Assembly: GCF_902769175.1 (NCBI RefSeq)
Contig: NZ_CACXNW010000003.1
Location: forward strand, 1 to 64,000
Direction: 5' to 3'
Origin: an uncultured Methanobrevibacter sp.
GTDB taxonomy: Archaea > Methanobacteriota > Methanobacteria > Methanobacteriales > Methanobacteriaceae
Length of the DNA stretch: 64,000 bases
Below the pieces are notes generated by a model. The model saw only the letters and a list, made by a program, of their open reading frames with translations, was not told the origin of the DNA and ran no database searches. Positions 5,608 to 33,147 of the stretch are shown here, piece after piece; position 1 is the first letter of the stretch; each line of letters begins with the position of its first letter. A program made the position numbers and the translations under genes.

Positions 5608-8532
5608 TCAAACTAATTTAGCTATGAATTGAGATATTTTATAAGGAGTTCTTCCTTTAAAAATATCTTTAACATCTACATAAATAGATCTTTCAGCTAA
5701 TTTTAATTTTATTCCAAGAGCAGTTAATGAATCACCGCCTAAGTGAATGAAATCATCATGAATGCCAATTTTCTGATTAAATATCTCTTCGAATACCTCA
5801 ACTACTACTTTTTCACTTTCATTTCTAGCATCTGCGCATTCAGATAAACTATCAGAGATAGCACCATTTTCATTTCTAGAATCAGGATATTCAGATAAAA
5901 TACCAGAAACCCCATCCTTTTCAATTATAGCATCTGTACATTCAGATAAAATACCAGAAACATTACCTTCCGTATCAGATACATCTTCAGAAACTTTAAT
6001 TTTTCCCTCTAAAATATCAAAAGGACCATAATCAATATCATCAAGCTCCTCTTTATACAATATCTGAATAAATATTTCTTTAATCACATTTACAAATCGT
6101 ATGATATTCTCTCTTGAATATTTATCTGAATAATCAACATTAACCAGATATCCATCTTCTAAATCATTTATAACACAGAACAATTCGCAGAATAGGTCTC
6201 TTTTATCTTCAAAGAACATTTCATCACCTATTTCTGGCAAATCATTTAAATCGTAAAGGTATGCAAACATTATATCCCTATTTAGATTAAATTCATTGGA
6301 TAATAAACTATAAGGATAAACAGAATATTTCATAGAATCTATAAGCAAGTTTGAAACATCAGTCAAATATTCCCTTATAGGTTTATTGCTGCAGTCAATG
6401 ACAATCGGTACTGTGCGAGCAAATGAGTCAAAGGATTGGAGAACATATGATTCCTGACGACCATTTTCAATGAAAGAGAAGAATGATGTATCGCTTCCAG
6501 TAACTCTGGATAATGCATATGCAAATATTGCATGCAACAAGATACCTGGAGTGATTCTACATTCCTGAGCAAACTCTTCAAATTCTTTCCTTATGCCTCT
6601 GATTGGAAGACAGACGCTTGCTCCTGAACCTCCAATATCTTCCAATAATGGCTTTGAATCTCCAATATTGGAAAGATTTTTCTTATAGAATTCATATGCT
6701 TCCTGATAAATGTTTTCAAATTGAACCTCAAATGAGTCCCAACTATTATATAGAAAACCTAAATCAATTGTTTCATCCAATTCTCCATTAAGGGACTCTT
6801 CTAGTCCTTTTAAAAGAACTTTTGCACTTGTAGCATCATTGATTAAATGATGAACATCAACAAATATTGACTTTTCCCCATCATCATCTATTATATAGAA
6901 ACGAGCAAGGTATTTTGTCAAATCAAATGGTTTTACAAGTTTCGAATAGTCAATTTCATCTGCCCTATCAATCAATGGGTAGGAACCGCATATTATCAAA
7001 GGAATATCCGGGCTCTCAAGTACTCTTCCCTTTAAAATAGGATACTTGTCAATAAATCTGAAAATGGCATTTTCTATTTCCTCAAATGACTTTTCACCAC
7101 AAGAAAGGATAGTTGGAGTTGCATAGGCAAGCCCTCTATCATACAATATTTCATCTAAATAAACGCCTAATTCCGCTTCTGACATTTGATAAACCAAAGC
7201 GTCTTCAAACTTATAATTGCCTAAAAATTCCAATTCATATTTGATATTTCGAATGAATTCGCTAAATCCATCCCCAAGATATGTGTCTTGGGCATAAATT
7301 CCATCAATTAAGTAGGAGTCATTTAAACGAGATATGTTGAAGGTAATTCCATAAGCAACTTGGTCCTTTTTAAGGTCCAATGCCAGATTTTCACCTATAG
7401 ATTCAAACATTTCATTTTTAAATGTAAATTCTGTGCTTAAGAAGTTGAATGAAACTGGACAATGCCTATAATCCAATTCATTTGACTCATAAATTAATGA
7501 TTGGTAATTCAATCCTAAATGTTTGATGCTCTTAAGTGCAGTTTTTAATTTATAAACATCCTTAACTAAAGAGACATTGTCATATTCGGCATTGACATTT
7601 ACCTTAACAGGGTACTGGCTAGTAAACCATGCTATAGTATGTGAAACATCTGCTAAACTTTCATCACGACCATAAGACTCACGATTGAAAATTATATCTT
7701 GATTAAAAGTATTTTTATATGCTCTAGCTATAGCAAATGCCCAATACTCTTCTTCAGATAATCCTAATAAATTATCTAGATTAAACTGAACATCAACATT
7801 AAAGTTAAAGCTTTTTGAATCTCCTTTTATTAATGAATCATCCAGCATATTATTTACTTCAATCCAATGTTCCTTTTCCTCAACGGAAATATTTTCAGCT
7901 AATTTCTTAACATCGCAAACCCATGATTTGTAAGGATATGGCCTTAAAATATCAATTTCCATATCTTTTTCCATGGAATTATAGATGTGAGTTAGATCAT
8001 CTATCAAAATACTCCAACTCACTCCATCAATAATTAAATGATGAATAACCATTATGAGATATGATTCATCATTATAATGAAGGAGATTGACTTTAATCAG
8101 ACTATCCTTTAAATCTATTGACATTTTGGATTTGCTAATGATTTCTGAAATATTTTCTTCAAAGCCATCATTGATTTCAATTTCATTTATTTTAGATATT
8201 TGAGCATCAACAGGCCTAATCTCCTGAATAACATCCAAACCATTCACATCAACAGACCTAAACTCCCCAACAACATCCAAACCATCCACATCAACTGACC
8301 TAAACTCCCCAACAACATCCAAACCATCCACATCACTATCTGATGGTTTGATTTCTTGAATTGTAGATTTTCCTATTGAATAACTTGCCCTTAACATATC
8401 ATGAATATTGGTTAACTTATCAAAGGATTTCTGCAAAACATTAATGTCCAATTTCTTATTTGCCTTTAAGACAAACTCTTGTGTAAAGTCATTTGCATTT
8501 ATTTCTTCAAAGAAGAATTTTTGAATAGGCAA
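5608..8532 (-). CDS. NRPS segment 5: E3, C4 and terminal carrier T4 with no adenylation domain
   Basis: E3 begins at LPIQKFFF (about 8518-8533) and has HHLIIDGVSWSIL (His codons 8038-8043), ESYGRDES, HTIAWFTSQYPV and LGLNYQSL. Its RT(I/V)GWF motif is altered to HTIAWF, so activity may be reduced. C4 has HHLINDA (6847-6852). After C4, where modules 2 and 3 have an adenylation domain, there are only about 80 residues with three 17-residue repeats (GxxSGILSEC-type, DNA 5838-5990), then T4 (LGGDSLTALGIKL, Ser 5728-5730), ending KISQFIAKLV. A 14-residue in-frame repeat (8230-8340) lies before the E3 active site. T4 might be loaded in trans, or C4-T4 might act in release. Confidence 0.88.
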   Translation of the reverse strand: MPIQKFFFEEINANDFTQEFVLKANKKLDINVLQKSFDKLTNIHDMLRASYSIGKSTIQEIKPSDSDVDGLDVVGEFRSVDVDGLDVVGEFRSVDVNGLDVIQEIRPVDAQISKINEIEINDGFEENISEIISKSKMSIDLKDSLIKVNLLHYNDESYLIMVIHHLIIDGVSWSILIDDLTHIYNSMEKDMEIDILRPYPYKSWVCDVKKLAENISVEEKEHWIEVNNMLDDSLIKGDSKSFNFNVDVQFNLDNLLGLSEEEYWAFAIARAYKNTFNQDIIFNRESYGRDESLADVSHTIAWFTSQYPVKVNVNAEYDNVSLVKDVYKLKTALKSIKHLGLNYQSLIYESNELDYRHCPVSFNFLSTEFTFKNEMFESIGENLALDLKKDQVAYGITFNISRLNDSYLIDGIYAQDTYLGDGFSEFIRNIKYELEFLGNYKFEDALVYQMSEAELGVYLDEILYDRGLAYATPTILSCGEKSFEEIENAIFRFIDKYPILKGRVLESPDIPLIICGSYPLIDRADEIDYSKLVKPFDLTKYLARFYIIDDDGEKSIFVDVHHLINDATSAKVLLKGLEESLNGELDETIDLGFLYNSWDSFEVQFENIYQEAYEFYKKNLSNIGDSKPLLEDIGGSGASVCLPIRGIRKEFEEFAQECRITPGILLHAIFAYALSRVTGSDTSFFSFIENGRQESYVLQSFDSFARTVPIVIDCSNKPIREYLTDVSNLLIDSMKYSVYPYSLLSNEFNLNRDIMFAYLYDLNDLPEIGDEMFFEDKRDLFCELFCVINDLEDGYLVNVDYSDKYSRENIIRFVNVIKEIFIQILYKEELDDIDYGPFDILEGKIKVSEDVSDTEGNVSGILSECTDAIIEKDGVSGILSEYPDSRNENGAISDSLSECADARNESEKVVVEVFEEIFNQKIGIHDDFIHLGGDSLTALGIKLKLAERSIYVDVKDIFKGRTPYKISQFIAKLV

Positions 8533-11500
8533 TAAATCAATGCTACCTTCAACAGCATCATAGGATACCTTATTACTTTCGGATATGTTTTGAGCTATTA
8601 AATATGGAGTTTTATAATCTAATATATCCTTAGCAGTGCAAAAGATATTATTTTTTGAAACAATGAAATAATACGAATAGACGATATAGAATCACCACCC
8701 AAACGCATAAAGTCATCATTTAATCCAATGTCCTTTTGATTAAACACTATATTAAATGCATCCACAATTGCCCTTTCATTTTCAGTGCTTGGTGGAACAT
8801 AATCTGTACGCAAAGCATTTATGTCTACTTTAGGCAAAGCTTGCCTATTGACTTTGGCATTAATGGTTAATGGAATTTCATCTAATTTAATTACAAATGA
8901 AGGAACCATATAATCAGGTTTAGATTCTGCAATATACTCACATATTGAATCTTTTAAATCTCCAGCTTTACCACTTACCACATAGGCAACCAATTCATTA
9001 TTGCTTCCATTTTTGATAGTTTGAACTGTAACATCTTCCACATAATCTATTTCACGAATAATCTTTTCAACTTGAGACAGTTCAACACGATTTCCCCTGA
9101 TTTTTACTTGGCTATCTTGACGGCCAACAAATGCAAATGAACCATCTGACAATACTCTCACCAGATCTCCAGTGCGATACAATAAACTGTATTCTTCATT
9201 ATTGTCAAATGGATTGCTAATGAATGACTTTATGTTTTCATCTTCACGATTCAAATAGCCTGCAGCCACTTGATATCCAGATATGCATAATTCCCCTACT
9301 GCCCCAATTGGGACACGCCTTAATTCCTTATCTATGACATAAGCTTAGTGTTGTAATTTAGCTTACCTATTGATGATGGGTCTATCTTATCTGAATTGTC
9401 TATAGATGTTACAAATGAAAATGTCTCTGTAGGTCCGAATCCATCAACTAACTGATAATTATTAGTGTTATCATATTCCCCTAATTTTTCACCTCCTACA
9501 AGCAAAACCTTTAATGAATCATTTTCAACATTTTCCATGAAAAGCTTTCCTAATTGAGTGGTCATCATAGTATGGGTGACCCCTTGTTTAATTAGGTAAT
9601 CGTTTAATTCATGGACATTTAGCTTAATGTTTTCAGGGATAACTGATAGACAGGATCCTGAATAGATGGATTGGCCTATAGCTAGTGTTCCTGCATCAAA
9701 ACCGATTGCAGCATACAATCCATAAACATCATCATTGCCAATGCCATAAGTGTCTTCATAATATTGTGAAATATTAAGGAGGGATTTTCTAGTGACTTTA
9801 ACTCCTTTTGGAATGCCAGTGGTACCGCTAGTGTATAAAATGCAAGCCACATCCCCATAAACAATAGGCAGGCTTGATAAAGAGCCAATATTCCCCTTAA
9901 TATCTGAAATATTTAAAAGAATGATATCATCATTTATTAGATTAGCAGCCCTCTCATAAGTGATGTCACTGACAATGAGCACTTTAACCTCTGAATCATT
10001 TAATATGAATTTTATTCTCTCATCTGGAAGGGCTTCATCTAAAGGAACATAAACTGCCCCAATTGACATTATTCCCAAAGCAAGCAATAAGTACCACTGA
10101 GACCTTTCAACTAAAAATGCTATGGCATTCTGTTTTTTTACCTTTAACTCAACCAATTGTTTGGCTATTTTTTCTGCAATAAAAGCCCCTTCACCATAGG
10201 ACAATGAAATATCATCATATTTGACAAGCTCACCATCAGAATGCTCACTAAATTTGACAAACTCACCATCAGAATGCTCACTAAATTTGACAAGCCCACC
10301 ATCAGAATGCTCACTAAATTTGACAAGCTCACTTTCAGGATGCTTGCTAAGATGGTCATTGAATGCATCTAAAATGTCTTCATATTTCAAATCATATTCT
10401 GTCTGATTATAACTATCCAACAGTTTTAAGTCCCTATCTGAAATATAATCAATCTCGGATAAGTTTTCCTTTTCTAAAATTTGGATTATGATTGCCCTAA
10501 AGCTTTCTAAAAATCTTATAACAAGCTCATCAGAATATTTGTCACATGAATCTATTCTGATTAAATAGCCGTCATCCAGATCATTTACAACACATAGAAA
10601 GTCTGAAATCAAATCCATGCCCATATCTTCAATCACCAACTCATCGCCAATGTCAGAAACATCATTTAAATTGTAGTTATACTCAAATGCAAGATCCATA
10701 TGTAAATTAAATTCATTGGCAAGCAATCTGTAAGGATAAACACTATGTTTCATTGAGTCGATAATCAAATCGGAAACATTGTTGAGATAGTCTTTAACAG
10801 AATCATTGCTGCAATCAACAATTATTGGAATTGTGCGGACAAACATTCCTACAGCATTTTGAGAATGGGGTTCATTGCGCCCATGCTGAGTGTATGTGTA
10901 AAATACTTTGTCACTAGCTGCAAATCTGGAACAGGTATATGCAAAAGTTGCATTTAGGAAGTTGCCTATGGTGATTCCAGTGCTATGGCAAAATTCTTCA
11001 ACAGGATTTTTAATGCCATGAATAGGAAGCATAATACGATTTTCACTACCTCCACCATCAAACAATATGGAATTTACCTCATCAATATCTGAAAGGTTTT
11101 TAGCATGGAAATCATGTGCCCTTTCATAGGATGGATCAAATTTGGATTCAAATGAGTAAAAGCTTTCAATGGCAAAGCCTAAATCAATAGTATCATCAAA
11201 TTCGCCATTAAATATCTCATCCAGTTCCTTTAAAATCAGCATTCCAGTTGTCGCGTCATTGATGATATGGTGCATATCATAAAATATGAACTTTCCATCA
11301 TCATTTGCAGCTATGAAAAATCTAGCTAAGGACTTATCCAAGTCAAAAGGCTTGATAAGTGATGAATAATCATCAGTTTCGACTATTTCAATTGAAGGAT
11401 AAGAATCACATACCACAAGAGGAATTTCTCCATCAACAATCCTGCTCTTTAAGATTGGATGCTTTTTGATAAGGCAATGAATGGCATTTTCCATTTCCTC

Positions 11501-14500
11501 CATTGAACTGTTGGATTCACATTTATAAATTCCAGAAGCAGAATATGCAGTGCCCTTATCATTTACCTTTTCATCTAAGTAAAGCCCTAATTGAGATTCG
11601 GACAATGGGCAAATAATTTCCTTAAATTCATATTGGCCTATGAATTCAAGTTCATATTCAATGTTTCCAACAAAGTCTTCAAATTTCCAAGCAAGATATG
11701 TGTCTTCAGGATAATCTCCATTGAATATGTACTTATCCTCCAAGCGTGAAACATTCAAGGTGATTCCATATGAAATGGAATCGAAGTTTCCTATTTTAAT
11801 TTCATCCTTAGATGATAAATAATCATTAATGGTTTGGAAAATATCATTTTTAAATACAAATTCATTGCTTAAAAAATTAAATGTCACTGGACAATGCTTA
11901 TATTCCAATTCATTAAGGATATAAACTAAAGATCCATAATTCAAGCCTAAATGATTAAGATTTTTAAATGCATTCTTTAAGGTACATACATCATTAACCA
12001 ATGAAATGCCATCATATTGACAGTTAACTTCAACATTAACTGAGAATTGGCTTGTAAACCATCCCACTGTTCTTGAAACATCAGCTATATTCTCATCACG
12101 ACCATGTGATTCCCTATTGAATATGATATCCTTGCCATAAGTCTTCTTATAGGCTCTAGCAATAGCCAAACCTAAATATTCCTCTTCTGTTAATCTTAAT
12201 TGATTATCAATCCTGAAATCTCCTTTGATATTCAAAGCAAAAACATTTGATTTGCCTTTGATTAAGGAATCATCCCACATCTTATCCAGTTCTATCCAAT
12301 GCTTCCTCTCATTTTCAGAAATCTTTGAAGACAATTCCTTAATATCCTCAACCCATAGCTTATATGGATAAGGCCTTAGGATATCGATTTCTGAACTTTC
12401 CTTAATGAGATTGTAAATATGTGACAAATCATCTATCAAAATACTCCAGCTCACTCCATCAATGATTAAATGATGTATAACAAAAATCAGATAAGATTCA
12501 TCATTGTAATGTACTAAATTGATTTTTATTAGCTCTTTTTCAATGTCAAGACTATTAAATGACTTAAAAATAATTCTTCCCAAATCATTTACAAAATCAT
12601 CAATAGTGTTCTCTTCGATTTCACAAACACGTGTATTTAGAGGTAATATTTCCTGAATAACTTTTCCGTTTTCTCGCCTATATACTGCCATTAGCATATC
12701 ATGAAGATTGGACAGCTCATCAAATGCTTTTTGCAAATCTTCCAAATCAAAGTCAATTGCAGACTTTAAAATAAATTCCTGAGAATATTGATTCTTGTTT
12801 ATATTATCAAAGAAAAATCCTTGAATTGGGTGCAATTCCACTTTTCCTTCAACTTCATTATAAATAACCTGTTCTACATCCCTAATGTTTTTAGCTATTG
12901 AATATGGTGTTTTATAAGTCAAGATATCTCGCGGAGTGCAAGTTATTCCTTCTTTCTGAAGTAAAGCTATAAGACGAATAACTGAAATGGAATCTCCTCC
13001 AAGGCGAACAAAGTCATCATATATTCCTATGCCTTCCTGATTGAAAACCCTTTCAAATGATTTCACTATCTTCCTTTCATTTTTATTTGTTGGAGCTGCA
13101 TAATCACTGCGCAAGCTATTCAAATCGATTTCAGGCAGTGCATATCGGTCAACTTTACCATTGACATTTAATGGAATCTTATCCAAGGAGACAATGTGTG
13201 AAGGGACCATATAATCTGGTTTGCATTCGCTGACATAATCCCAAACCCGTTCCCTAAGATTATCAATCGGCTCTGATGTGACTAGATATGCAACAAGCTC
13301 ATAATTTCCATGATTTCTTATTGTTTGAACAGTAACATCACTAATATAATCTATCTCACGAATAACTTCTTCCACTTCCAATAGTTCTACACGGTTTCCT
13401 CTGATTTTTACTTGACTGTCACGACGGCCGATAATTCCCAAGGAACCGTCAGCCAATATACGAACAATATCCCCAGTACAGTATAATCTATTGTAATCCC
13501 CATCCACATCAAATGGATTTTCAATGAATGCCTTTGCATTTTCATCATCACGGTTCAAGTAGCCTTGAGCAATCTGATAACCTGCCAAGTATAACTCACC
13601 TGCTGCACCAATAGGGACCGGATTCATATTGTTGTCCAATACATATGCTTTGGTATTGTATATCAAATGCCCAATTGAAGAGGCATCGATCTTATCCGCT
13701 TTTTCAATGCAGCTTACATCAACGCAAGCTTCTGTAGGACCATATGAATCAATGAAATGGTAATTGGAGGATATGTTGATTTCCCCTAACTTTTCTCCTC
13801 CTGTGAATAGGTATTTTAGAGTATTGTTTTCCACTTGGCTTATGAATAGTTTTGCAACTTGTGTTGGAAGATCTGCAAATGTAACTTCATGTTCAATTAG
13901 ATGATTGTTTAATCTATACATATCCAGCTTAACGTCATCTGGTATGATGTCTAGTGCTGCACCACAGCATATTGGAGCAAACATACACTTTATTGCAACA
14001 TCAAAGCCTATTGATGCAAATAGACCATATACATCAGATTCTGTTAAGTTATAATAGTCTGAAGGGTATGTGGAAATATTCAAAATGGATTTTCTAGTAA
14101 TTTTAACCCCTTTAGGAACACCAGTAGTACCACTAGTGTATAAAATACATGCCAAATCATTATAAGTTACATCTAAAGAAGATAAACCACCAACAACACC
14201 AGAACCAGAACCAACACCTAAAGAAGATAAACTATCAATACCACCAACAACACCAGAACCAGAACCAACACCTAAAGAAGATAAAGATTTAAGATTCTCA
14301 GCAATATGAGATTCATTTAAAATAACCAAATCATCCGAGATGCTTTTTGCCCGTTCATAGGCACTATCGCTTACGATTAGAACCTTAACTTCAGTATCCT
14401 CTAATATGAACTCAATCCGTTCATCAGGATGGCTTGTATCAAGAGGAACATAAACTGCACCTAATGATAATATAGCTAAGGCATCAAAGAGATACCATTC

Positions 14501-17500
14501 AGACCTTTCAGTTAAGAATGCAACTGCATCATTTTGTTTTACACCTAATTCGCTTAATTCATTAGCGATTTTATCCACTATAAAAGCCACATCAGCATAT
14601 GTATAAGCCTTATCCTTAAATGATACCAACTTATTGCTTGGATACTTAGCCAAATTATCATTAAATGCATCCATTATATCCTCATATTCCAATGGATGCT
14701 CTGTTTGATTATAGCTATCCAAAAGATTTAGATCTTCCTCTGAAATATAATCAATATCTGATAAATTTTCCTTATCTGAAATTTGGATTAGAATTTCCTT
14801 AAATACGTTTAAAAATCTGATTATCAGTTCATTTGAATATTTTTCATCCGAATCTATTCTGAGTAGATATCCATCATCCAAATCATTTACCACACATATA
14901 AAGTCAGAGATTAAATTAATTTCCAGATTCTCTATAATCAATTCATCTCCAACATCACTTACATCATTTAAATTGTAGTTATATTCAAATGCCCCATTAA
15001 GATTTAAATCATATTCATTAGCAAGCAACCTAAAAGGATAAACGCTATATCTCATTGAATCTAAAATCAGCTCTGAAGTCCTTTCTAAAAAATCATCTAC
15101 AGAACTGCTGCTGCAATCGACAATTATTGGAACTGTTCGAGCAAACATTCCAAAAGCCTTTTGAGCATAAGGCTCATAACGTCCATGTTGAGTATATGTG
15201 TAGAAAACCTTATCATCACCTGTGAAGCGAGAATAAGTGTAAGCAAAGACTGAATTGAAAAAAGTGTTTACTGTGATTCCCTTTTTATGGCAAAATCCTC
15301 TAATTTTATTTTTAATGCCACGAATCGGAAGCATTATACGATTTTCCATTCCCAAGTAATCATATGGCAATGGAGACACATCATCAATATCCGAAAGGTT
15401 TCTATTGAAAAAATCATGCCCCTCCTTATAAATATCCTTATATTGTGCCTCAAAGGAATTATTGCTTTCATAAACAAATCCCAAATCAATGCTATAATCC
15501 ATATTGCCTTCAAAAATATTATCTAATTCCCTGTGAATCAAATGCCTATTGGTACCATCACTGATTATATGGTGAATATCAAATAATATGGACTTTTCAT
15601 CCCCATTGCATATTATATAGAAACGTGCCAAATATTCATCTAAATTAAATGGTGCAATCAAGTCTCGATAATTATCAGCATCTCTAAATTCAATCAATGG
15701 ATAGCTATCACATACCAAAAGAAGATTTTCATCCTCAACAATGCGACCTTTTAATATAGGGTGCCTATTGATCAATTCGTCAATGACTTCCCTAATCTCA
15801 TCAACAGACTTATCCAGAGGACACTTGTAAATGCCTGCAGTAGAGTATGCAGTACCCATATCACGAACCTTTTCATCTAAATAAATAGCTAATTGGGTTT
15901 CAGACAAGCAAGATACAATGTTTTCCTTTTCCAATGAGTAATTGCCTAAAAACTCTAACTCATTTTTCATATTTGCAATGAACTCTTCAAATTTATCCCC
16001 TAAGTATGTGTCTTTAGCATAATTCCCAACAATGACATAATTGTTTCCGACACGGGAAATCTTTAAACTAATTCCATATGTTGTTGATTCATACATACTC
16101 ATATCAAGATTATCATTTGAAGTGAGATACACATCAAGGGATTCGAAAATCTCATTTCTGTAAACAAACTCATCGCTTAAGAAGTTTAAAGTCACAGGAC
16201 AAGACTTAAATTCCAATTCATTGCTGCCATAAATGAGAGAGCCATAATTTAGCCCTAAATGTTCAACATCCTTAAATGCATTCTTAAGGCTATAGACATC
16301 ATTCACTATGGAAATACTGTCATATCCATTGTTTACATTAACAGGCACAGGGAATTGGCTTGTAAACCAGCCGATAGTCCTATTGACATCTGCTAAACTT
16401 TCATCCCTACCATAAGACTCCTTATTAAAAATGATATCTTCACCATAGGTTTTCTTATATGCGCGGGCAATGCCTAAAGCAAGGTATTCCTCTTCCCTCA
16501 TCATCAATAGGTTATTTGCATCAAATGATGATTCAATATTAAAACCGAAAATTTGGACTTTACCCTTAATTTTTGAATCGTTTAAACGACTATTTATTTC
16601 AAGCCAATGCTTCTTTTCACTTTCTGAAATATTTGAAGCCAAATTTTTCACATCTTCAACCCATGACTTATATGGGTAAGGCTTTACTAAATTAGCATCT
16701 TCATTTTCTAAAAATAGGGCATATAAATATGTCAGATCATCAATTAAAATACTCCAGCTAACTCCATCTATAATCAAATGGTGAATAACGAAAATTAGGT
16801 AAGATTCTCTCTTGTGATGCAGCAAATTAACTTTTATTAATGATTCGTTAATGTCAAGTGAAGCATTGGATTCGAAAATGATTTTTCCTATTTCCCTTTT
16901 CAAATCACCATCTTCCATATGAATCTCATTAATTTCACAAACTCGAGTATCAGCTGGAAGTATTTCCTGGATTGGCTTGCATCCATCATCATGCCTATAA
17001 GTTGCCCTTAACATATCATGGGTTTTGGACACGCCATCAAAAGCCTTTTGAAGAATGTCCTTATCCAATTTAAAATTTGATTTTAAAATGTATTCCTGGG
17101 AATATTCATTGGCATTGACCTTATCAAAGAAGTAACTTTGAATAGGGAGCAAATCAACTTCCCCTTCTGTTTCATCATAAGAAACATGCTTGATTTCCTG
17201 GATATTTTGGGCAATTGAAAATGGAGTCTGATAATTGATTATGTCTCTTGCATTACATGTAATGCCTTCTTTTTGAAGAAGGGATAAGACACGAATGGCA
17301 GAAACGGAATCTCCACCTAAACGTATGAAATCATCATATAAACTAATTTTTTCCTGATTCAAGACCTTTTCAAAGGCATTGACTATAATCTTTTCCCTTT
17401 TGGTTTTTGGAGCAACATAATCTGCATGAAAACCACTTAAATCCACATCAGGCAAACTGTTCTTATCAACTTTGCCGTTAATGTTTAATGGGATGGAATC

Positions 17501-19478
17501 CACCTCAATGACATATGAAGGAACCATATAGTTTGGCTTAGAGATACTGACATATTTCCTGATTATCTCATCAAGATTGTCTACCTCAATATTGCTGACA
17601 ACATAAGCCACCAATTCATGTTTGCCATTATTCCTAACTGTTTGAACAGTCACATCCTTTATGTAATTTGATTCGCGAATGACAGACTCAACTTCAGATA
17701 GCTCTACACGATTTCCCATAATCTTCACTTGGCTGTCACGACGACCGATAATGGCGATTGAACCATCAGGCAAAATCCTCACCATATCACCGGTACGGTA
17801 TAGCACATCATATCCTTTACCATTATCAAAGGGATTCAATAAGAAGGCACCTTTTGTTTTTTCTTCATTGTTTAGATACCCTTCAGCTATCTGATAGCCA
17901 GACAAATATAATTCTCCAACTGCACCTATCGGCACACGTCTACCTTCATCATCTAAAACATAAGCTTTTGTGTTGTAATTCAAATGTCCTATTGCGGAAG
18001 AATCTATCTTTTCGGAATTTTTAATGGAAACTACGTGTTCAAATGCTTCTGTAGGACCGCAAACATCAATCAAGGTATAACCTTTAGGACTTTCAAAGTC
18101 TCCTACTTTTCACCGCCAACCATTAAAACATCAAGGGAAGTGGAATCATTGCTTTGCATAAATAATTTGGCTACTTGTGTAGTGATCCATGTATGTGTTA
18201 CAGATTGGTTTATGAAATATTCATTTAATCTCAGCATATCTGTTTTATAATCATCAGGAACAACAGAAAGACAAGCTCAGGAATATAAAGCCACATTAAT
18301 ATTGAAACTGGCTACATCAAAGCCAATGGAAGAGAATAATCCATATACGTCACCATTATTTAGACCATATTTGTCAACATACCAATCACAAACATTTAGA
18401 ATGGATTTTCTAGTGATGTTTATTCCTTTAGGAGTGCCAGTTGTACCGCTAGTATATAATACACAAGCAACATTGCCACAGATTGAATTCAAATGAGAAG
18501 CTTCCCCAATATTCTCTTTAAGAATATCTGAAGCATTTAAGATAATGGCTTTGCCAGATAAATTCTTAGCACGTTCATAAGTTTCATCAGTGACAATAAG
18601 CACTTTAGAACCAGTATCTTCCAATATGAATTCTATACGTTCATCAGGGAGATTAAAGTCAAGAGGGACATAAATGGCACCTACAGATAAAATACTTAAA
18701 ATGTTAAACACATACCACTCTGACCTTTCAGTTAAAAAAGCAACAGAGTCCTGTACTCCAATGCCTTGGTCATTTAGCATTTTAGCTATTTTATCTGCAA
18801 TGAAAGCCCCTTGAGAATAACTGTAATTTCTATCTTTAAAGGATACAAGCTTATTTTTGGGATATTTTTTAAGATTATCATTGAATGAATCCAATATGTC
18901 AGCATATTTTAAAGGATGTTCCGTTTGATTATAAGAGTCTAATTGCTTTAAATCAGAAATACTGGTATAATCATATCTTTTAATACATCAACATTTAAAA
19001 TATCATGCAATATTGATTTAAATGAATATAAAAAACGATTAATGGTATTTTGAGAATATTTTTCTGAGGAACTAAGCTTCAAAACATAATCTTTATCCTT
19101 TTGGAGGATATTTGCATTAAAATCATATGATTCTATTTCTTCGGACATTAAGTTAAAAACAATGTTTGATGATTCATCAACCCTATTTTGATCATAATAA
19201 TCAATAGATTCCTTTACACTATCAATAAAAGCAGACACCTTTTGGTTTTCGCAATTAACAAACAAGGGGAGAGGATCTGAATTTTCATCAATAATATCAA
19301 ACAATACCTTGTCACTGCAGACAAATCTGGATAATGTATATGCAAAAGCACTTATGAATAGGATATCTTTATTTTCATTAAAGGTTTCACTGTTCAAATC
19401 CAAATCAATGAAACTGAAAGAAGGAGAATTTTCCCCTACATCACTTAATAATACCCCCACTTCTTCAATATCAAACAT
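5608..19478 (-). CDS. Non-ribosomal peptide synthetase, about 4,600 residues, reading frame broken in this assembly
   Basis: Read from 19478 downwards the order is: C-terminal half of a condensation domain, A1-T1-E1, C2-A2-T2-E2, C3-A3-T3-E3, C4-T4. The phosphopantetheine serines in LGGDS are at 17306-17308, 12989-12991, 8688-8690 and 5728-5730. The frame is interrupted by four one-base deletions near 18972, 18108, 9345 and 8653, and by one TGA at 18277-18279. In every case the neighbouring module shows what was lost, and the two sides join without missing protein. The product would be a peptide of three activated residues, each with an epimerase, so probably all D. No thioesterase, reductase or terminal condensation domain of the cyclizing type follows T4. 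A TATA-like box at 19535-19542 and GTGAT before ATG 19478 support the start. A phosphopantetheinyl transferase must be supplied from outside the window. Confidence 0.9.
5838..5990 (-). repeat. 3 x 51-bp in-frame repeat between C4 and T4
   Basis: The plus-strand motif ATTCAGATAAA recurs at 5838, 5889 and 5940, exactly 51 bp apart. It encodes three degenerate 17-residue repeats rich in Ser, Asp and Glu. It sits where an adenylation domain is expected. Confidence 0.85.
8230..8340 (-). repeat. 42-bp in-frame repeats in the E3 domain
   Basis: Copies start at 8230, 8272 and 8314 (42-bp period) and are nearly identical. They encode SVDVDGLDVVGEFR repeated about 2.6 times. The insertion follows IQEI(K/R)P, at a loop that is only a few residues long in E1 and E2. 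Confidence 0.9.
8619..9269 (-). CDS. NRPS segment 4: C-terminal subdomain of A3 and carrier domain T3
   Basis: The true frame is open from about 9345. It holds GELCISGYQVAAGYLN, the A7-A8 region YRTGDLVRVLSDGSFAFVGR-type segment and a degenerate A10 motif NAKVNR that keeps the catalytic Lys (the other modules have NGKVDK/R). T3 follows with LGGDSISSIRI, Ser at 8688-8690. The frame is lost at a run of six A (plus-strand T 8651-8656) where seven would give LFQKNNIFCTAKDIL, matching the other T domains. Confidence 0.85.
   Translation of the reverse strand: MAAGYLNREDENIKSFISNPFDNNEEYSLLYRTGDLVRVLSDGSFAFVGRQDSQVKIRGNRVELSQVEKIIREIDYVEDVTVQTIKNGSNNELVAYVVSGKAGDLKDSICEYIAESKPDYMVPSFVIKLDEIPLTINAKVNRQALPKVDINALRTDYVPPSTENERAIVDAFNIVFNQKDIGLNDDFMRLGGDSISSIRIISLFQKIISFALLRIY
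9332..18073 (-). CDS. NRPS segment 3: end of A1, T1-E1, C2-A2-T2-E2, C3 and most of A3
   Basis: This 2,913-residue stretch is open throughout. After A1 (NGKVDK) come T1 and E1. E1 and E2 have the epimerase signatures HHLIIDGVSWSIL, ESYGRDES or ESHGRDEN, RT(I/V)GWFTSQF and LGLNYGSL, which separate epimerization from condensation domains. C2 has HHIISDG. C3 has HHIINDA, where Gly of HHxxxDG is Ala but the catalytic His and Asp remain. A2 and A3 contain YTSGTTG(V/I)PKG. Hand-derived pocket codes are A2 D-V-K-D-F-G-S-V-D-K, resembling basic-residue codes (Orn/Arg type), and A3 D-A-L-M-L-G-G-S-F-K, resembling Val-type codes; both are tentative. In-frame repeats interrupt A2 (about 14165-14288) and the C3-A3 junction (10221-10330). 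The segment ends at a lost G (AAGCTT for AAGGCTT) near 9345. Confidence 0.9.
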   Translation of the reverse strand: MIDVCGPTEAFEHVVSIKNSEKIDSSAIGHLNYNTKAYVLDDEGRRVPIGAVGELYLSGYQIAEGYLNNEEKTKGAFLLNPFDNGKGYDVLYRTGDMVRILPDGSIAIIGRRDSQVKIMGNRVELSEVESVIRESNYIKDVTVQTVRNNGKHELVAYVVSNIEVDNLDEIIRKYVSISKPNYMVPSYVIEVDSIPLNINGKVDKNSLPDVDLSGFHADYVAPKTKREKIIVNAFEKVLNQEKISLYDDFIRLGGDSVSAIRVLSLLQKEGITCNARDIINYQTPFSIAQNIQEIKHVSYDETEGEVDLLPIQSYFFDKVNANEYSQEYILKSNFKLDKDILQKAFDGVSKTHDMLRATYRHDDGCKPIQEILPADTRVCEINEIHMEDGDLKREIGKIIFESNASLDINESLIKVNLLHHKRESYLIFVIHHLIIDGVSWSILIDDLTYLYALFLENEDANLVKPYPYKSWVEDVKNLASNISESEKKHWLEINSRLNDSKIKGKVQIFGFNIESSFDANNLLMMREEEYLALGIARAYKKTYGEDIIFNKESYGRDESLADVNRTIGWFTSQFPVPVNVNNGYDSISIVNDVYSLKNAFKDVEHLGLNYGSLIYGSNELEFKSCPVTLNFLSDEFVYRNEIFESLDVYLTSNDNLDMSMYESTTYGISLKISRVGNNYVIVGNYAKDTYLGDKFEEFIANMKNELEFLGNYSLEKENIVSCLSETQLAIYLDEKVRDMGTAYSTAGIYKCPLDKSVDEIREVIDELINRHPILKGRIVEDENLLLVCDSYPLIEFRDADNYRDLIAPFNLDEYLARFYIICNGDEKSILFDIHHIISDGTNRHLIHRELDNIFEGNMDYSIDLGFVYESNNSFEAQYKDIYKEGHDFFNRNLSDIDDVSPLPYDYLGMENRIMLPIRGIKNKIRGFCHKKGITVNTFFNSVFAYTYSRFTGDDKVFYTYTQHGRYEPYAQKAFGMFARTVPIIVDCSSSSVDDFLERTSELILDSMRYSVYPFRLLANEYDLNLNGAFEYNYNLNDVSDVGDELIIENLEINLISDFICVVNDLDDGYLLRIDSDEKYSNELIIRFLNVFKEILIQISDKENLSDIDYISEEDLNLLDSYNQTEHPLEYEDIMDAFNDNLAKYPSNKLVSFKDKAYTYADVAFIVDKIANELSELGVKQNDAVAFLTERSEWYLFDALAILSLGAVYVPLDTSHPDERIEFILEDTEVKVLIVSDSAYERAKSISDDLVILNESHIAENLKSLSSLGVGSGSGVVGGIDSLSSLGVGSGSGVVGGLSSLDVTYNDLACILYTSGTTGVPKGVKITRKSILNISTYPSDYYNLTESDVYGLFASIGFDVAIKCMFAPICCGAALDIIPDDVKLDMYRLNNHLIEHEVTFADLPTQVAKLFISQVENNTLKYLFTGGEKLGEINISSNYHFIDSYGPTEACVDVSCIEKADKIDASSIGHLIYNTKAYVLDNNMNPVPIGAAGELYLAGYQIAQGYLNRDDENAKAFIENPFDVDGDYNRLYCTGDIVRILADGSLGIIGRRDSQVKIRGNRVELLEVEEVIREIDYISDVTVQTIRNHGNYELVAYLVTSEPIDNLRERVWDYVSECKPDYMVPSHIVSLDKIPLNVNGKVDRYALPEIDLNSLRSDYAAPTNKNERKIVKSFERVFNQEGIGIYDDFVRLGGDSISVIRLIALLQKEGITCTPRDILTYKTPYSIAKNIRDVEQVIYNEVEGKVELHPIQGFFFDNINKNQYSQEFILKSAIDFDLEDLQKAFDELSNLHDMLMAVYRRENGKVIQEILPLNTRVCEIEENTIDDFVNDLGRIIFKSFNSLDIEKELIKINLVHYNDESYLIFVIHHLIIDGVSWSILIDDLSHIYNLIKESSEIDILRPYPYKLWVEDIKELSSKISENERKHWIELDKMWDDSLIKGKSNVFALNIKGDFRIDNQLRLTEEEYLGLAIARAYKKTYGKDIIFNRESHGRDENIADVSRTVGWFTSQFSVNVEVNCQYDGISLVNDVCTLKNAFKNLNHLGLNYGSLVYILNELEYKHCPVTFNFLSNEFVFKNDIFQTINDYLSSKDEIKIGNFDSISYGITLNVSRLEDKYIFNGDYPEDTYLAWKFEDFVGNIEYELEFIGQYEFKEIICPLSESQLGLYLDEKVNDKGTAYSASGIYKCESNSSMEEMENAIHCLIKKHPILKSRIVDGEIPLVVCDSYPSIEIVETDDYSSLIKPFDLDKSLARFFIAANDDGKFIFYDMHHIINDATTGMLILKELDEIFNGEFDDTIDLGFAIESFYSFESKFDPSYERAHDFHAKNLSDIDEVNSILFDGGGSENRIMLPIHGIKNPVEEFCHSTGITIGNFLNATFAYTCSRFAASDKVFYTYTQHGRNEPHSQNAVGMFVRTIPIIVDCSNDSVKDYLNNVSDLIIDSMKHSVYPYRLLANEFNLHMDLAFEYNYNLNDVSDIGDELVIEDMGMDLISDFLCVVNDLDDGYLIRIDSCDKYSDELVIRFLESFRAIIIQILEKENLSEIDYISDRDLKLLDSYNQTEYDLKYEDILDAFNDHLSKHPESELVKFSEHSDGGLVKFSEHSDGEFVKFSEHSDGELVKYDDISLSYGEGAFIAEKIAKQLVELKVKKQNAIAFLVERSQWYLLLALGIMSIGAVYVPLDEALPDERIKFILNDSEVKVLIVSDITYERAANLINDDIILLNISDIKGNIGSLSSLPIVYGDVACILYTSGTTGIPKGVKVTRKSLLNISQYYEDTYGIGNDDVYGLYAAIGFDAGTLAIGQSIYSGSCLSVIPENIKLNVHELNDYLIKQGVTHTMMTTQLGKLFMENVENDSLKVLLVGGEKLGEYDNTNNYQLVDGFGPTETFSFVTSIDNSDKIDPSSIGKLNYNTKLMS
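10221..10330 (-). repeat. 33-bp in-frame repeats at the C3-A3 junction
   Basis: TTGACAA recurs at 10221, 10254, 10287 and 10320, exactly 33 bp apart. The repeats encode 11-residue units of the type GELVKFSEHSD just before the first strand of A3. A2 and A1 have a single unit-length segment (KLVSFKD) at this place. Confidence 0.9.
14165..14288 (-). repeat. In-frame Gly/Ser repeat inside adenylation domain A2
   Basis: Two near-identical copies encode SLSSLGVGSGSGVVGG, the second with an extra three residues, followed by a partial third (LSSLDV). The insertion lies just before the ATP-binding YTSGTTG loop, at a surface loop of the fold, and has the composition of a flexible linker. Confidence 0.85.
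18277..18894 (-). CDS. NRPS segment 2: N-terminal part of adenylation domain A1
   Basis: Contains the A1 core up to the pocket-lining region: VPLDFNLPDERIEFIL, the ATP loop YTSGTTGTPKG (about 18424-18459) and FDVASFNINVALYS. The frame then meets TGA at 18277-18279 exactly where the other two A domains have Gly or a small residue (YSGSCLSVIP in A3), and continues in the same frame as ACLSVVPDD through VGGEK. It shifts by one at a run of four A (plus-strand T at 18107-18110) where five are needed to give GEKVGDF. A hand-read binding-pocket code is D-V-F-W-M-G-V-E-H-K, which I cannot match to a known substrate. Confidence 0.85.
   Translation of the reverse strand: MDSFNDNLKKYPKNKLVSFKDRNYSYSQGAFIADKIAKMLNDQGIGVQDSVAFLTERSEWYVFNILSILSVGAIYVPLDFNLPDERIEFILEDTGSKVLIVTDETYERAKNLSGKAIILNASDILKENIGEASHLNSICGNVACVLYTSGTTGTPKGINITRKSILNVCDWYVDKYGLNNGDVYGLFSSIGFDVASFNINVALYS
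18948..19478 (-). CDS. NRPS segment 1: C-terminal lobe of a condensation domain at the synthetase N-terminus
   Basis: The protein starts in the middle of a condensation fold. Its first residues align with the linker between the two lobes of C2 and C3 in this synthetase (DIDDV in C2, FDIEEV here), and AFAYTLSRFVCSDKVLF matches FAYTYSRFTGDDKVFY of C2. The N-terminal lobe with HHxxxDG is absent, and there is no coding sequence upstream, so the piece cannot condense. It may be a structural cap for A1 or a relic of an internal deletion. The frame ends at a lost G: ATGAT is read where ATGGAT (Met-Asp) is expected, near 18970-18974. Confidence 0.8.
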   Translation of the reverse strand: MFDIEEVGVLLSDVGENSPSFSFIDLDLNSETFNENKDILFISAFAYTLSRFVCSDKVLFDIIDENSDPLPLFVNCENQKVSAFIDSVKESIDYYDQNRVDESSNIVFNLMSEEIESYDFNANILQKDKDYVLKLSSSEKYSQNTINRFLYSFKSILHDILNVDVLKDMIIPVFLI

Positions 19479-19976: not shown

Positions 19977-21745
19977 ATGGCTTATGAAAGAAACTACGAT
20001 TTAATCAATAGGAAATTTAAGGAATTGTTTTTTCCAACAATGGGAGTTGTAGTGGCAGGAAATTTTGCCATACTAATTGATGCGATTCTAATCAGCTTAA
20101 TTTTAGGTCCAAATTATCTCTCTGTCATCCAGTGTGTGGAACCATTTGCATTATTTTTCACAGTCATCTATTGGATGATTGGAATGGGAGGCAGCATTTT
20201 ATGTTCCATTGCCAAAGCGGAATTTGATGATGAAAAAGGCAATGCATTGTTTACAGTTTCTCTTCTTAGTGTAGTGGCACTGTCATTAACCATAGTAGGG
20301 CTTTCATTATTATTCCCAGATTCCATTGCTCAAATACTATGCAATTCAGTTCAATTAAGACCTTTAGTTAATCAATATATTAGCGCATATTTAATAGGAG
20401 TGCCCTTTTTTTGTTATATGATTGTAACAGCATATTTCATTAAATCATTTGGATTTATTAAACTGCAATTTTGGGCATATTTATTATGCAATATTGTAAA
20501 CATAACCTGCGATATTGTCTTTATGAACTATCTTGATCTTAGCATTGCAGGTGCAGGATTAGCTACCACTACTGGATATATAGTATCTGCAATAATCATA
20601 TCCTACTATTTCATAAGTCCTAAAAAGTCATTGAAACTTATAAAAGTAAAATTGTCATCAATGCTTGGTTATTTTGTAGAAATCTGTAAAACTGGAATAT
20701 CCATTGCATCAACCCAATTATACGCATCCATCAAATTTTTATTTGTAAATGCCTTAATATTAACAATTGCAGGAGAAATGGGATTGGCTGCAATGAATAT
20801 TTGTTATAATGTATTGTTTTTAGTATTGATATTCCTTCTCGCCGTTACACAGTCAATTTTACCTATTGTTTCTGTATATTATAAAGAAGAAGACTTTAAT
20901 GGGGTAGATTATGTGACACATAAATCATTGAAAATTGTCATTGCCCTTGGAATCTTTTTCTCATTGCTGTTTATTGCATATCCAGAAACCATATTAACCA
21001 TATTCATTTTAAATAGTCCTGCAGAGATTCCAATGGTAGTGGAGTCTGTCAGATTATTTTCATTATGCTTTGTAAGTTATGCAATATGCTATTTATATAT
21101 CTTTTATGCACAATCAGTCCAATATAATAAATTGGCAAATCTGATTTCACTTTTGGAAGGTCTGATTCTTCCTATAATCATTACCTATCTTTTTGGGTAT
21201 TTATGGGGAATCAAAGGAATATGGATTGGATTTACAGTTGCTGAATCTTTAACTGTGCTGTTTATTTATATCTATTCAAAATATTATACTAAAAAATCCA
21301 ATCATGAATATTCTGGCTTTTTCCTAAATAAAAGCAGTGATGAGGGAGAAGTATGGGAATTTATGTTAAAAGGAACAGAAGAGGATGTTTCAAAACTGAG
21401 TGAAGAAATTAAAGATCATTTGCATGAATCAGAATCTGGAATGAAAGTTTGCTTAGCAATGAAGAGATGCTAAGTCACATTATTGAATTGAACGAAGAAG
21501 TGGATTTAATCGATATCCTCATTAGAAACAAAGAGGACAAAGTATTAATTTCAATAAAATATTCAGGAATCCCATGCAACCCATTAGAATATGAAAACTT
21601 AAAAAATAGGGAAGATGAAGAGTTGAATAGAATCATAAATTCAATGGACCTTTCTAAAATGAAAGATTTATTGGAAATTGCTGACAATATTGACTATTCC
21701 CAAATACTGGAATTAAATAATGTTTTAATTACAATCAAACACTAA
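19977..21745 (+). CDS. MATE-family exporter fused to a degenerate RsbW-like domain, one frameshift
   Basis: Residues 1 to about 445 form a 12-segment MATE transporter, paralogous to the gene at 270. The tail continues as an RsbW/SpoIIAB-like fold: KVCLAM, then after a one-base shift near 21461 EEMLSHIIELN (N-box region) and ISIKYSGIPCNP (G1-box region). Restoring one G (ATGGAAGAG for ATGAAGAG) joins the two frames seamlessly into a protein of about 590 residues. The N-box Asn is His and the G1-box Asp is not conserved, so the tail may bind a partner rather than phosphorylate. The gene is divergent from the NRPS. Export of the NRPS product with some switch through the tail is inferred. A similar linkage of NRPS, MatE and anti-sigma-type proteins was reported in M. 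ruminantium M1. Confidence 0.85.
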
Positions 21746-21849: not shown

Positions 21850-21938
21850 TGTTTCTTAGGAAACATTTATAAATGACAAAAATCATAAAATCTAATAGAC
21901 TAAAGTATCGTTCATTTATAAACAGTTTCTCAAGAAAC
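21850..21938 (+). promoter_or_regulatory. Two MarR-type operators flanking TATA boxes
   Basis: Palindromes GTTTCTTAGGAAAC (21851-21864) and GTTTCTCAAGAAAC (21925-21938) share the consensus GTTTCYYNRGAAAC. Each lies beside a TTTATAAA box (21867-21873 and 21915-21921). The second lies between its TATA box and the preferred start codon at 21963, a classical repressor position. Binding by the adjacent MarR protein is inferred. Confidence 0.65.
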
Positions 21939-21962
21939 ATTAAAAAAACAAAATGTGATAAT

Positions 21963-22409
21963 ATGAAAGACTATTCACAATTAGATAAATTTGATTCAAT
22001 GCCTTTTATAGCACTAATTCATCACATATCCAGAAATAAATTAAGATATGCTCAGAAAAACCCAAACCGCATAGATATGGTTCATGAAGGCCAATATTTA
22101 ATGGCAATATATAATAGAAAAAACCTATCTCAAGATGATTTGGCAACACTTTTTGGTCAAAGCAAGGGAACAATAGCTAAAGCTTTAAGAAAATTGGAAG
22201 ACCAGGAATATGTTGAACGGATCATTGATGAAAACAATAGAAGGAAATACATATTGAAAACAACAGAAAAGGGAGAAATACTAGCTATCCTATTAGAAAA
22301 TGATTTAAAGGAATGGGAAGAGCAAGTTGGAATAGACAAATTAGATGAAAATGCAAAAAATCAGCTAAGGGAAATAGCTAGAAAAACAGAGGAAATACTT
22401 GAAGAATAA
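21963..22409 (+). CDS. MarR-family transcriptional regulator
   Basis: About 148 residues from ATG 21963. An upstream in-frame ATG at 21873 exists, but the extra 30 residues cover the operator region and are unlikely to be translated. The winged helix is clear: NLSQDDLATLFGQSKGTIAKALRKLEDQEYVERIIDENNRRKYILKTTEKG, with the recognition helix at SKGTIAKALRKL and the wing at DENNRRKY. MarR proteins repress adjacent transport genes and are released by phenolic or drug ligands. The MATE exporter at 22483 follows in the same direction 73 bp later, so this is probably its repressor and also autoregulatory. Confidence 0.85.
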   Translation: MKDYSQLDKFDSMPFIALIHHISRNKLRYAQKNPNRIDMVHEGQYLMAIYNRKNLSQDDLATLFGQSKGTIAKALRKLEDQEYVERIIDENNRRKYILKTTEKGEILAILLENDLKEWEEQVGIDKLDENAKNQLREIARKTEEILEE

Positions 22410-22482: not shown

Positions 22483-23832
22483 GTGGAATTAATGAGAGGA
22501 GCACCAGAAATAGCTGTTAAAAAGCTTGCTATACCAATTATGATTTCAATGCTTTTAACAGCATCATACAACATCATCGATGGAATATTTGTAGCAGGAC
22601 TTGGACAAGCTGCAATAGCAGGTATGGGATTTGTAACACCTATATTTATGATATTGAATGGTGTAAGCGTAGGTCTTGGAAGCGGTGCTACAAGCAGCAT
22701 CAGTCGTTTTGTAGGAGCAAAAAACCACGATGGGGCAAACCAGTCTGCAGCACATTCCCTTTTAATATTCTTGATTGCTTCAATAATCCTTACAGCAGTA
22801 TTGATTTTTGTCCAAGAGCCTTTGCTTAGAACCTATGGAGCAAGTGGCCAGTCCTTAGCAGAAGGTATAAAATATGGTACACCTCTATTTTTAGGATTAT
22901 TCACATTCATATTTGCAAATGGTGGAAGCGGAATCCTTAGGGGAGAAGGAGATATGAAAAGAGCTATGTATGCTGTTATCGTTTCTGTTTTATTGAATGC
23001 AATACTTGACCCTCTATTCATTTACACACTTGGACTTGGTTCAGCAGGAGCTTCCCTTGCAACCATTGTAAGCTCAGTCGGATCTGCTACAGTAATCCTA
23101 TACTGGATTCTTATTAAAAAGGACACTTGGGTTCAAGTGGATTTAAAAAACTTTAAATTCAATCCAGAAATAGCTAAAGACATTCTAAAGGTAGGTATTC
23201 CTGCTTCAATGGATATGTTTATGATGTCCTTTGCAGTTAGCTTATACTTGATATTCATATCTACAATCGGTGGAGAATATGGAATAGCTGCATTTACATC
23301 AGGTCAAAGGCTATACCTATTTGCAATTATGCCTCTTACATCAATCGGTACTGCAGTAGCTGCAGTAAGTGGAAGCGCATATGGAGCAAGAAATGGAGAT
23401 TACCTTTCAAGAACTCACCTTTATGGGGTTAAATTTGGAATAGCCTTTGGAACAGCAGTTACAATAATCCTTGTAGGATTTGCACCTCAGCTTTCAACCA
23501 TATTTGCGTATACTCCTGAAACTGCACCATTAGTTCCTGAAATTACTAGATTCCTGCAAATAGCTTGCTTATGTCTTCCATTAACTGGAGCAGGAATGAC
23601 TTCAAGCTTCCTATATCAAGGAATTGGAAAGGGAACAATAAGCTTAATGTGGACAATCATCAGAGAGGTCATCTTTACAGTCACTGCTACATACACCCTT
23701 GGAATAGTATTAGGATGGGGACTTGTTGGTATTTGGACTGGACTCTTCTTAGGAAGAGCCTTAGCAAGTATTCTAAACTTCCTCTTTGCAAGATTCACCA
23801 TCAAGAAAGTAAGAGAAGAATTCGGCAATTAG
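22483..23832 (+). CDS. MATE-family multidrug exporter
   Basis: A 449-residue MATE protein with 12 predicted membrane segments and no RsbW-like tail. It starts MELMRGAPEIAVKKLAIPIM, typical of archaeal MATE proteins. The annotated start is GTG 22483, but an ATG at 22469 with GGGA 6 bases upstream would be in frame if one A were restored in the A run at 22477-22481, giving MAIKNVELMRGAPE. This aligns with the N-terminus of the MATE gene at 63450 (NIEMITGDPKKA), so a one-base deletion is likely here too. Co-directional with the MarR gene, probably one operon controlled by the GTTTC operators. Confidence 0.85.
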   Translation: MELMRGAPEIAVKKLAIPIMISMLLTASYNIIDGIFVAGLGQAAIAGMGFVTPIFMILNGVSVGLGSGATSSISRFVGAKNHDGANQSAAHSLLIFLIASIILTAVLIFVQEPLLRTYGASGQSLAEGIKYGTPLFLGLFTFIFANGGSGILRGEGDMKRAMYAVIVSVLLNAILDPLFIYTLGLGSAGASLATIVSSVGSATVILYWILIKKDTWVQVDLKNFKFNPEIAKDILKVGIPASMDMFMMSFAVSLYLIFISTIGGEYGIAAFTSGQRLYLFAIMPLTSIGTAVAAVSGSAYGARNGDYLSRTHLYGVKFGIAFGTAVTIILVGFAPQLSTIFAYTPETAPLVPEITRFLQIACLCLPLTGAGMTSSFLYQGIGKGTISLMWTIIREVIFTVTATYTLGIVLGWGLVGIWTGLFLGRALASILNFLFARFTIKKVREEFGN

Positions 23833-33117: not shown

Positions 33118-33147
33118 CATATCACCTTTCAAAATCCATTCCTACAA

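Follow-up and report, generated by a model that had tools for sequence, protein, structure and literature searches.

Three domains of a nonribosomal peptide synthetase (NRPS) encoded in an archaeal genome are, as judged by profile, tree, predicted fold, and catalytic His and Glu, epimerization (E) domains. The NRPS lies in the 64,000-nucleotide stretch of DNA analyzed here (the window), which comprises bases 1 to 64,000 of a 164-kb contig in a 3.12-Mb assembly of 65 contigs with 88% completeness. It occupies positions 5608 to 19478 of the minus strand and is a single modular NRPS, split over five open reading frames (ORFs) as assembled.

Domain order and typing of the epimerization domains

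The coordinates, strand, and module order given in the sequence-only reading were borne out by the ORFs, by Pfam, and by iterated profiles. With profiles built here and iterated over relatives, the order was half-C/A1-T1-E1/C2-A2-T2-E2/C3-A3-T3-E3/C4-T4, followed by a stop (C, condensation; A, adenylation; T, carrier; Table 1). Four of the five NRPS ORFs matched the Pfam models Condensation, AMP-binding, AMP-binding_C, and PP-binding above cut-off, and the scores of the 2913–amino acid (aa) ORF were far beyond chance (Condensation, E = 1.1e-137; AMP-binding, E = 3.8e-122). The half-C ORF gave no Pfam match at 0.001 and was visible only with the iterated profile. Repeated C-A-T modules with a carrier serine mark the protein as a modular NRPS; the carrier motif LGGDS is present in T1 to T4. 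Each of E1, E2, and E3 sits between a T and a C domain, the placement of an E domain, so that every adenylating module does have its own epimerase, as had been proposed. The three E domains carry the motifs HHLIIDGVSWSIL, ESYGRDE or ESHGRDE, and GWFTSQF or AWFTSQY. The nearest solved relatives of A2 are the A domains of the linear gramicidin synthetase LgrA; a search for A-domain specificity patterns returned nothing.

Table 1. NRPS domains and neighboring genes, with positions in the window.
Feature	Position	Strand	Evidence and remarks
Half-C, C-terminal portion of a C domain, lacking HHxxxDG	18948–19478	−	Iterated C/E profile positions 228–403 of 409, 59 bits
A1, adenylation, in pieces (different frames)	17441–18936	−	Pfam AMP-binding 1.3e-35 on ORF 18277–18894
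T1, carrier, LGGDS	17192–17410	−	
E1, epimerization	15869–17176	−	Profile, tree, catalytic residues
C2, condensation, after E, HHIISDG	14729–15862	−	
A2, adenylation, whole	13124–14716	−	In-frame repeat 14169–14285
T2, carrier, LGGDS	12869–13108	−	
E2, epimerization	11567–12859	−	Profile, tree, catalytic residues, predicted fold matching E domains first
C3, condensation, after E, HHIINDA	10427–11560	−	
A3, adenylation, in pieces	8823–10414	−	In-frame repeat 10219–10344
T3, carrier, LGGDS, in pieces	8578–8786	−	
E3, epimerization	7150–8556	−	Profile, tree, catalytic residues; in-frame repeat 8205–8335
C4, condensation, after E, HHLINDA	6013–7140	−	
T4, terminal carrier, LGGDS, no A before it	5614–5865	−	In-frame repeat 5817–5962 in linker
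MatE efflux transporter, divergent; candidate exporter	19977–21473	+	Pfam MatE 6.1e-18
MarR-type regulator; role guessed from position	21873–22409	+	Pfam MarR 7.8e-12
Second MatE transporter; role guessed from position	22483–23832	+	Pfam MatE 5.7e-52

A profile built from the genome's six E domains, of which two are partial, scored 121 to 175 bits on ten E-containing Protein Data Bank (PDB) chains, among them bacitracin synthetase 3, gramicidin S synthetase 1, the tyrocidine synthetases, and PvdL, whereas the best chain without an E domain reached 37 bits. The top-scoring chain, from bacitracin synthetase 3, includes a C domain as well and scored 144 bits over its E part alone. For phylogenetic analysis, domains were typed by position alone: 276 position-typed domains (profile coverage of at least 75%) were reduced to 144 rows by taking no more than 20 to 22 per class and removing near-copies. 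All 44 E rows (22 bacterial, 18 from archaeal relatives, and 4 from this genome, including the window's three) were split from the 100 C rows with a support of 0.919. In a mixture-model tree of 66 rows drawn from these 144, with loci L126 and L223 left out beforehand, the 19 E rows formed one clade (100/100), and a single clade of archaeal E domains and archaeal C domains that follow E (post-E C domains) was rejected (p-AU 5.0e-4).

Nine positions were invariant in all 21 aligned E domains: H129, H130, and D134 (the His pair and Asp of HHxxxDG); E250, G253, and R254 (the E, G, and R of ExxGR); and W267, F268, and T269 (W-F-T). H130 and E250 are presumably the catalytic His and Glu of E domains. 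When a predicted model of E2 (mean pLDDT 79) was compared with solved structures, 13 E-containing PDB chains ranked ahead of any chain without an E domain, at 20 to 24% identity. Among the NCBIfam matches listed for the main ORF (the best 25 of 108), there was no E-specific model. The sequence-only reading had typed the three domains as epimerization rather than condensation domains; they neither group with the C clades nor lack the catalytic His or Glu, and profile, tree, fold, and catalytic residues uphold that typing, with epimerase activity as the prediction. The carrier motif was also considered as support. LGGDS is found in 78 of 78 T domains before E versus 2 of 59 before C in the bacterial set; in archaea, it hardly discriminates (47 of 49 versus 30 of 39), and we regard it as weak evidence.

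Predicted product and frame breaks

Two other NRPSs start with a half-C-like stub: the genome's unbroken 5880-aa NRPS (L010) and a 4202-aa NRPS of Methanobrevibacter ruminantium M1 (L134). Since this start recurs in other NRPSs, the chain likely begins at A1, without N-acylation; the half-C has no catalytic lobe. Domains A1 to A3 would load three amino acids. E1 would flip residue 1 to the D form, and C2 would join this D donor to residue 2 on T2, which would then be flipped by E2. With the cycle repeated by C3 and E3, a D-D-D tripeptide would stand on T3, and an all-D tripeptide core is a fair inference from the domain order; the peptidase resistance and the signaling or antimicrobial roles proposed for it in the sequence-only reading are conjectural. 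C4, followed by the A-less T4, may couple the tripeptide with an amino acid that T4 receives in trans, so that C4-T4 could add a fourth, non-epimerized residue after E3. Alternatively, C4 may hand the tripeptide to T4 for release by another protein.

T4 is the last domain, and the ORF ends within about five codons after it. Neither a thioesterase (TE) nor a reductase follows T4, and the NRPS thus has no release domain in cis. Genome-wide, two thioesterase matches were found, both weak, below cut-off, and away from the NRPS locus. The genome has one PPTase. The neighboring divergent MatE pump may export the product.

Overall, we favor with moderate confidence a working all-D assembly line, that is, an archaeal modular NRPS with its own epimerase in each loading module and with frame breaks that are not fatal in the cell. 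For this line, we infer D stereochemistry, use of D donors by C2 to C4, release, export, and the harmlessness of the breaks. It is quite possible, if somewhat short of probable, that the NRPS works and its product is not all-D, either because T4 receives an L residue in trans (yielding D-D-D-L) or because one or more E domains are idle. The A-less C4-T4 downstream of E3 points in this direction, as does the same A-less C-T end on the 5880-aa NRPS, and inactive E domains are described for glycopeptide NRPSs in the accessible part of one paper (PMC1894796). The catalytic residues, however, are retained in all three E domains of the window. If the all-D reading is true, the D-peptide, as a stable molecule, would be a candidate for mediating interactions between a rumen methanogen and its neighbors.

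As assembled, the NRPS gene is broken at five sites: the reading frame shifts near 18.96, 18.1, 9.33, and 8.65 kb, and a TGA interrupts it in frame near 18.28 kb. The breaks fall in the C1-A1 linker, in A1 (the 18.1-kb change and the TGA), in A3 (9.33 kb), and in T3 (8.65 kb), while E1 to E3, C2 to C4, T1, A2, T2, and T4 all lie within open frames. The ratio of nonsynonymous to synonymous changes (dN/dS) between E and C paralogues was 0.17 to 0.24 (with dS above 1), and the four tandem arrays of the gene have periods that are multiples of three (51 bp in the linker at T4, 42 bp in E3, 33 bp in A3, and 54 bp in A2, the last with 22% indels). These values indicate past selection on the frame and sequence of the gene. 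The E domain of L010 contains a similar in-frame repeat.

The gene could be a decaying pseudogene, a formerly working E-rich NRPS broken in the present strain, which we consider possible but lean against. Five breaks in 13.9 kb are many for a genome in which NRPS ORFs of 5880 and 3227 aa run uninterrupted. Together with these ORFs, an intact RNA polymerase Rpb2 (603 aa) and full-length frames in three of four tRNA synthetase matches argue against a uniform error rate; several further NRPS loci of the genome are also broken. The damage nevertheless extends to other genes. Compared with the genes of three congeners, 2 of 23, 3 of 16, and 3 of 14 window genes were broken, mostly by a frame change, whereas comparisons among the three congeners flagged 1 of 12, 0 of 12, and 2 of 24 genes, in every case for a stop symbol and never for a frame change (overlapping gene sets, genes of at least 120 aa aligned over at least 60% of their length). 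Two window genes showed stop symbols as well. Among the broken window genes are trpA and trpB (read by eye), an MFS gene, and a MatE gene that looks split (32339 to 34331, 25354 to 26804, and 270 to 1823). The fourth tRNA synthetase match is short (591 versus 677 to 698 aa), and a fifth is missing. Taken together, the frame changes in trpA, trpB, and the MFS gene, the split MatE gene, and the tRNA synthetase gaps fit assembly error in stretches. The open frames of the E domains, the full C domains, and T4, and the arrays that stay in frame, also speak against decay.

Condensation domains after epimerization domains

The archaeal post-E C domains form their own archaeal lineage, apart from the bacterial clade of post-E C domains (the DCL clade). 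C2 is 46 to 61% identical to five other aligned post-E C domains of this genome and 30 to 34% identical to six C domains that do not follow an E domain. In the 66-row tree, 11 of the 12 archaeal post-E C rows formed one clade (100/100), which grouped with nine other archaeal C rows, eight located after T plus L225 (100/99). The ten bacterial post-E C rows formed a separate clade (100/100), and four archaeal C-after-T rows fell among the bacterial C-after-T rows. Forcing the 11 archaeal and 10 bacterial post-E C rows together cost 69 log units under the mixture model (p-AU 5.4e-6); L225, archaeal and placed elsewhere, was left out of this test, and the group was named after the first tree. A six-state recoded tree agreed with a separate archaeal lineage.

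The His motifs tell the same two sets apart. All 22 bacterial post-E C rows have HHxxxDGW[CS], whereas 20 of 26 archaeal rows have HHxxxDA and only one has DGW[CS] (L126, which groups with bacteria). In the window, C2 has DG, and C3 and C4 have DA. C2, C3, and C4 thus stand directly after E, as DCL domains do, but do not form one clade with the bacterial post-E C domains, and their signatures differ as well. We suggest that they may work like DCL domains without being bacterial DCL domains, and that D-donor handling was probably taken up anew in archaea, beside an E domain of bacterial type. The Ala that C3 and C4 have at the Gly position of HHxxxDG counts against our best explanation, as do the five breaks and the missing A and release domains at T4. 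This Gly is listed as catalytic in VibH and yet is not invariant, according to the accessible part of PMC1894796. The best solved relatives of C4 are C domains, although weakly so (27.8 bits). A precedent for replacing DCL after E comes from fungi, which place another C lineage, CT-DCL, after E according to the part of PMC10212144 that was available.

A common origin of the archaeal post-E C domains and the bacterial DCL domains, masked by long branches and AT-rich composition, is unlikely. In its favor, many rows fail the composition test, branches are long, and the tested grouping was picked after the first tree. Against it, this grouping was rejected under the mixture model, the recoded tree also separates the lineages, composition alone does not cluster archaeal rows (four archaeal C rows join the bacterial C-after-T rows), and the DGW[CS] signature divides the two sets. 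Returning to a separate archaeal lineage, we tentatively propose, as a scenario less likely than not, that in gut Methanobrevibacter a bacterial-type E domain was paired with an archaeal C domain that became D-accepting independently (with HHxxxDA in place of HHxxxDGW), that in the window the pair multiplied until each loading module had an epimerase, and that an all-D peptide is made and exported. An independent D-accepting C lineage, if true, would represent a second way of reading donor stereochemistry and would be useful for NRPS engineering.

Distribution and comparison with known systems

The DNA flanking the NRPS matches four congeners (74 to 84% identity in the longest blocks). Condensation matches were found on nine contigs of the assembly, at ten places including the window's; some lie at contig ends and are perhaps pieces of one gene. 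The six E domains of the genome are the three in the window and one each on contigs C6, C15, and C17, of which those on C15 and C17 have broken frames. The sequence-only reading had called NRPSs rare in archaea. This view did not hold: besides the nine contigs noted above, 687 NRPS clusters in 125 archaeal genomes are counted in a rumen survey (PMC8241843, available part). NRPSs are common in rumen Methanobrevibacter, and E domains are less common. Archaeal NRPSs have thus been counted before; we found no description of epimerization in them among open-license PMC papers, and the available part of the rumen survey (PMC8241843) contains no such terms.

Strong E matches (at least 200 bits) were present in at least 19 of 138 Methanobacteriaceae genomes, and matches of at least 100 bits in at least 22, among the matches listed; no more than 12 candidates were scored in each genome, which makes the numbers for individual genomes lower bounds. 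Among the 19 genomes of the window's genus, this one alone reached 200 bits and one more reached 105 bits, again among the matches listed. The best 80 of 387 confirmed places of E relatives correspond to 77 loci, 20 in metagenome-assembled genomes (MAGs) of Methanobrevibacter and 57 in bacteria. Within these 80, the E domains of the Methanobrevibacter MAGs, several of which are named after ruminant gut samples, are 51 to 61% identical to those of the window, and the bacterial ones, mostly from Paenibacillus, 24 to 30%. A scan for relatives with E3-C4-T4 as one protein query gave no match. A second kind of E domain, of bacterial type, occurs in other Methanobacteriaceae (L126 in G119 and L223 in G129). 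In L126, the C domain that follows it likewise falls with the bacterial post-E C domains, suggesting that it was transferred separately.

Runs of consecutive E modules were counted along whole loci, many of which are cut by contig or locus ends. Among archaeal loci, three in a row were found in the window only, two in five others, and one in 31 strand-wise entries; among the 57 bacterial loci, 39 have a single E module, 15 have two in a row, and 3 (L157, L189, and L210) have three. A run of three is therefore not unique to the window. Counted within single ORFs, bacterial runs do not exceed two E modules (two in 13 ORFs, one in 44). Elsewhere, L116-L117 (G042) encodes 10,816 aa in one uninterrupted frame, in which modules alternate and three matches to E occur.

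Some relatives have split E domains. In L147 (5871 to 8783), an inserted C-T pair separates an N-lobe with HHxxxDG from a C-lobe with ExxGR and WFT, and a C domain closes the line. The same split was seen in L148, L149, L150, and L154 and in L123, L124, L128, L214 to L217, and L219 (overlapping genomes); in L125/L151, the lobes are parted by C-A-T. In four ortholog pairs of the split E domain, dN/dS was 0.16 to 0.22 for the N-lobe, 0.10 to 0.19 for the C-lobe, and 0.14 to 0.24 for the inserted C domain. Archaeal lines ending in E-C with no carrier after it occur in L121, L123 to L125, L128, L214 to L216, and L219.

The closest solved E structures are those of GrsA, TycA, and TycB3, which share the E fold and motifs with the window. 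In GrsA and TycA, the chain starts at an A-T-E unit, and the window NRPS is likewise read as starting at one. The window differs from the GrsA and Tyc synthetases in sequence (20 to 24% identity in fold alignments), in having an E domain in every loading module and no terminal TE, and in its post-E C domains, which lie outside the bacterial post-E clade. The fungal CT-DCL domains (PMC10212144, in the part available) are, like the archaeal post-E C domains, a C lineage found after E, distinct from bacterial DCL and a possible replacement for it; they also end some lines, and by analogy, release by the terminal C domain is possible in the carrier-less E-C lines.

Whether the window NRPS is one of the two described in M. 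ruminantium M1 had been left undecided, and the comparison shows that it is a Methanobrevibacter NRPS but neither of those two. The two M1 NRPS ORFs contain no domain typed as E, with E profile scores of at most 21 bits, and the best M1 match of E3-C4-T4 has 28% identity over a C domain, so the window NRPS is not an ortholog of either. The M1 NRPSs, mru0068 and mru0351, are adjoined by MatE genes, as in the window (PMC2812497, accessible part), and the 4202-aa one shares the half-C start. Their sequences continue past the last T, unlike the window's, and their ends are described as thioesterase or thioester reductase in the same portion of that paper (PMC2812497).

Closer likeness is found in the NRPSs of Methanobrevibacter MAGs (RUG13476, RGIG4535, RUI021, and others), whose E domains show the identities given above and whose post-E C domains belong to the same clade as those of the window. 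The A1 to A3 pieces share 55 to 72% identity with their best matches in archaea, mostly in E-containing loci of such MAGs. The MAG loci read, many cut by contig ends, have no more than two E modules in a row and line ends other than that of the window. The bacterial loci L157 (a Halothermothrix MAG), L189, and L210 (Paenibacillus) share the order A-T-E-C-A-T-E-C-A-T-E with the window; in the stretches read, further C-A modules follow there, whereas the E run of the window takes in all of its A-containing modules.
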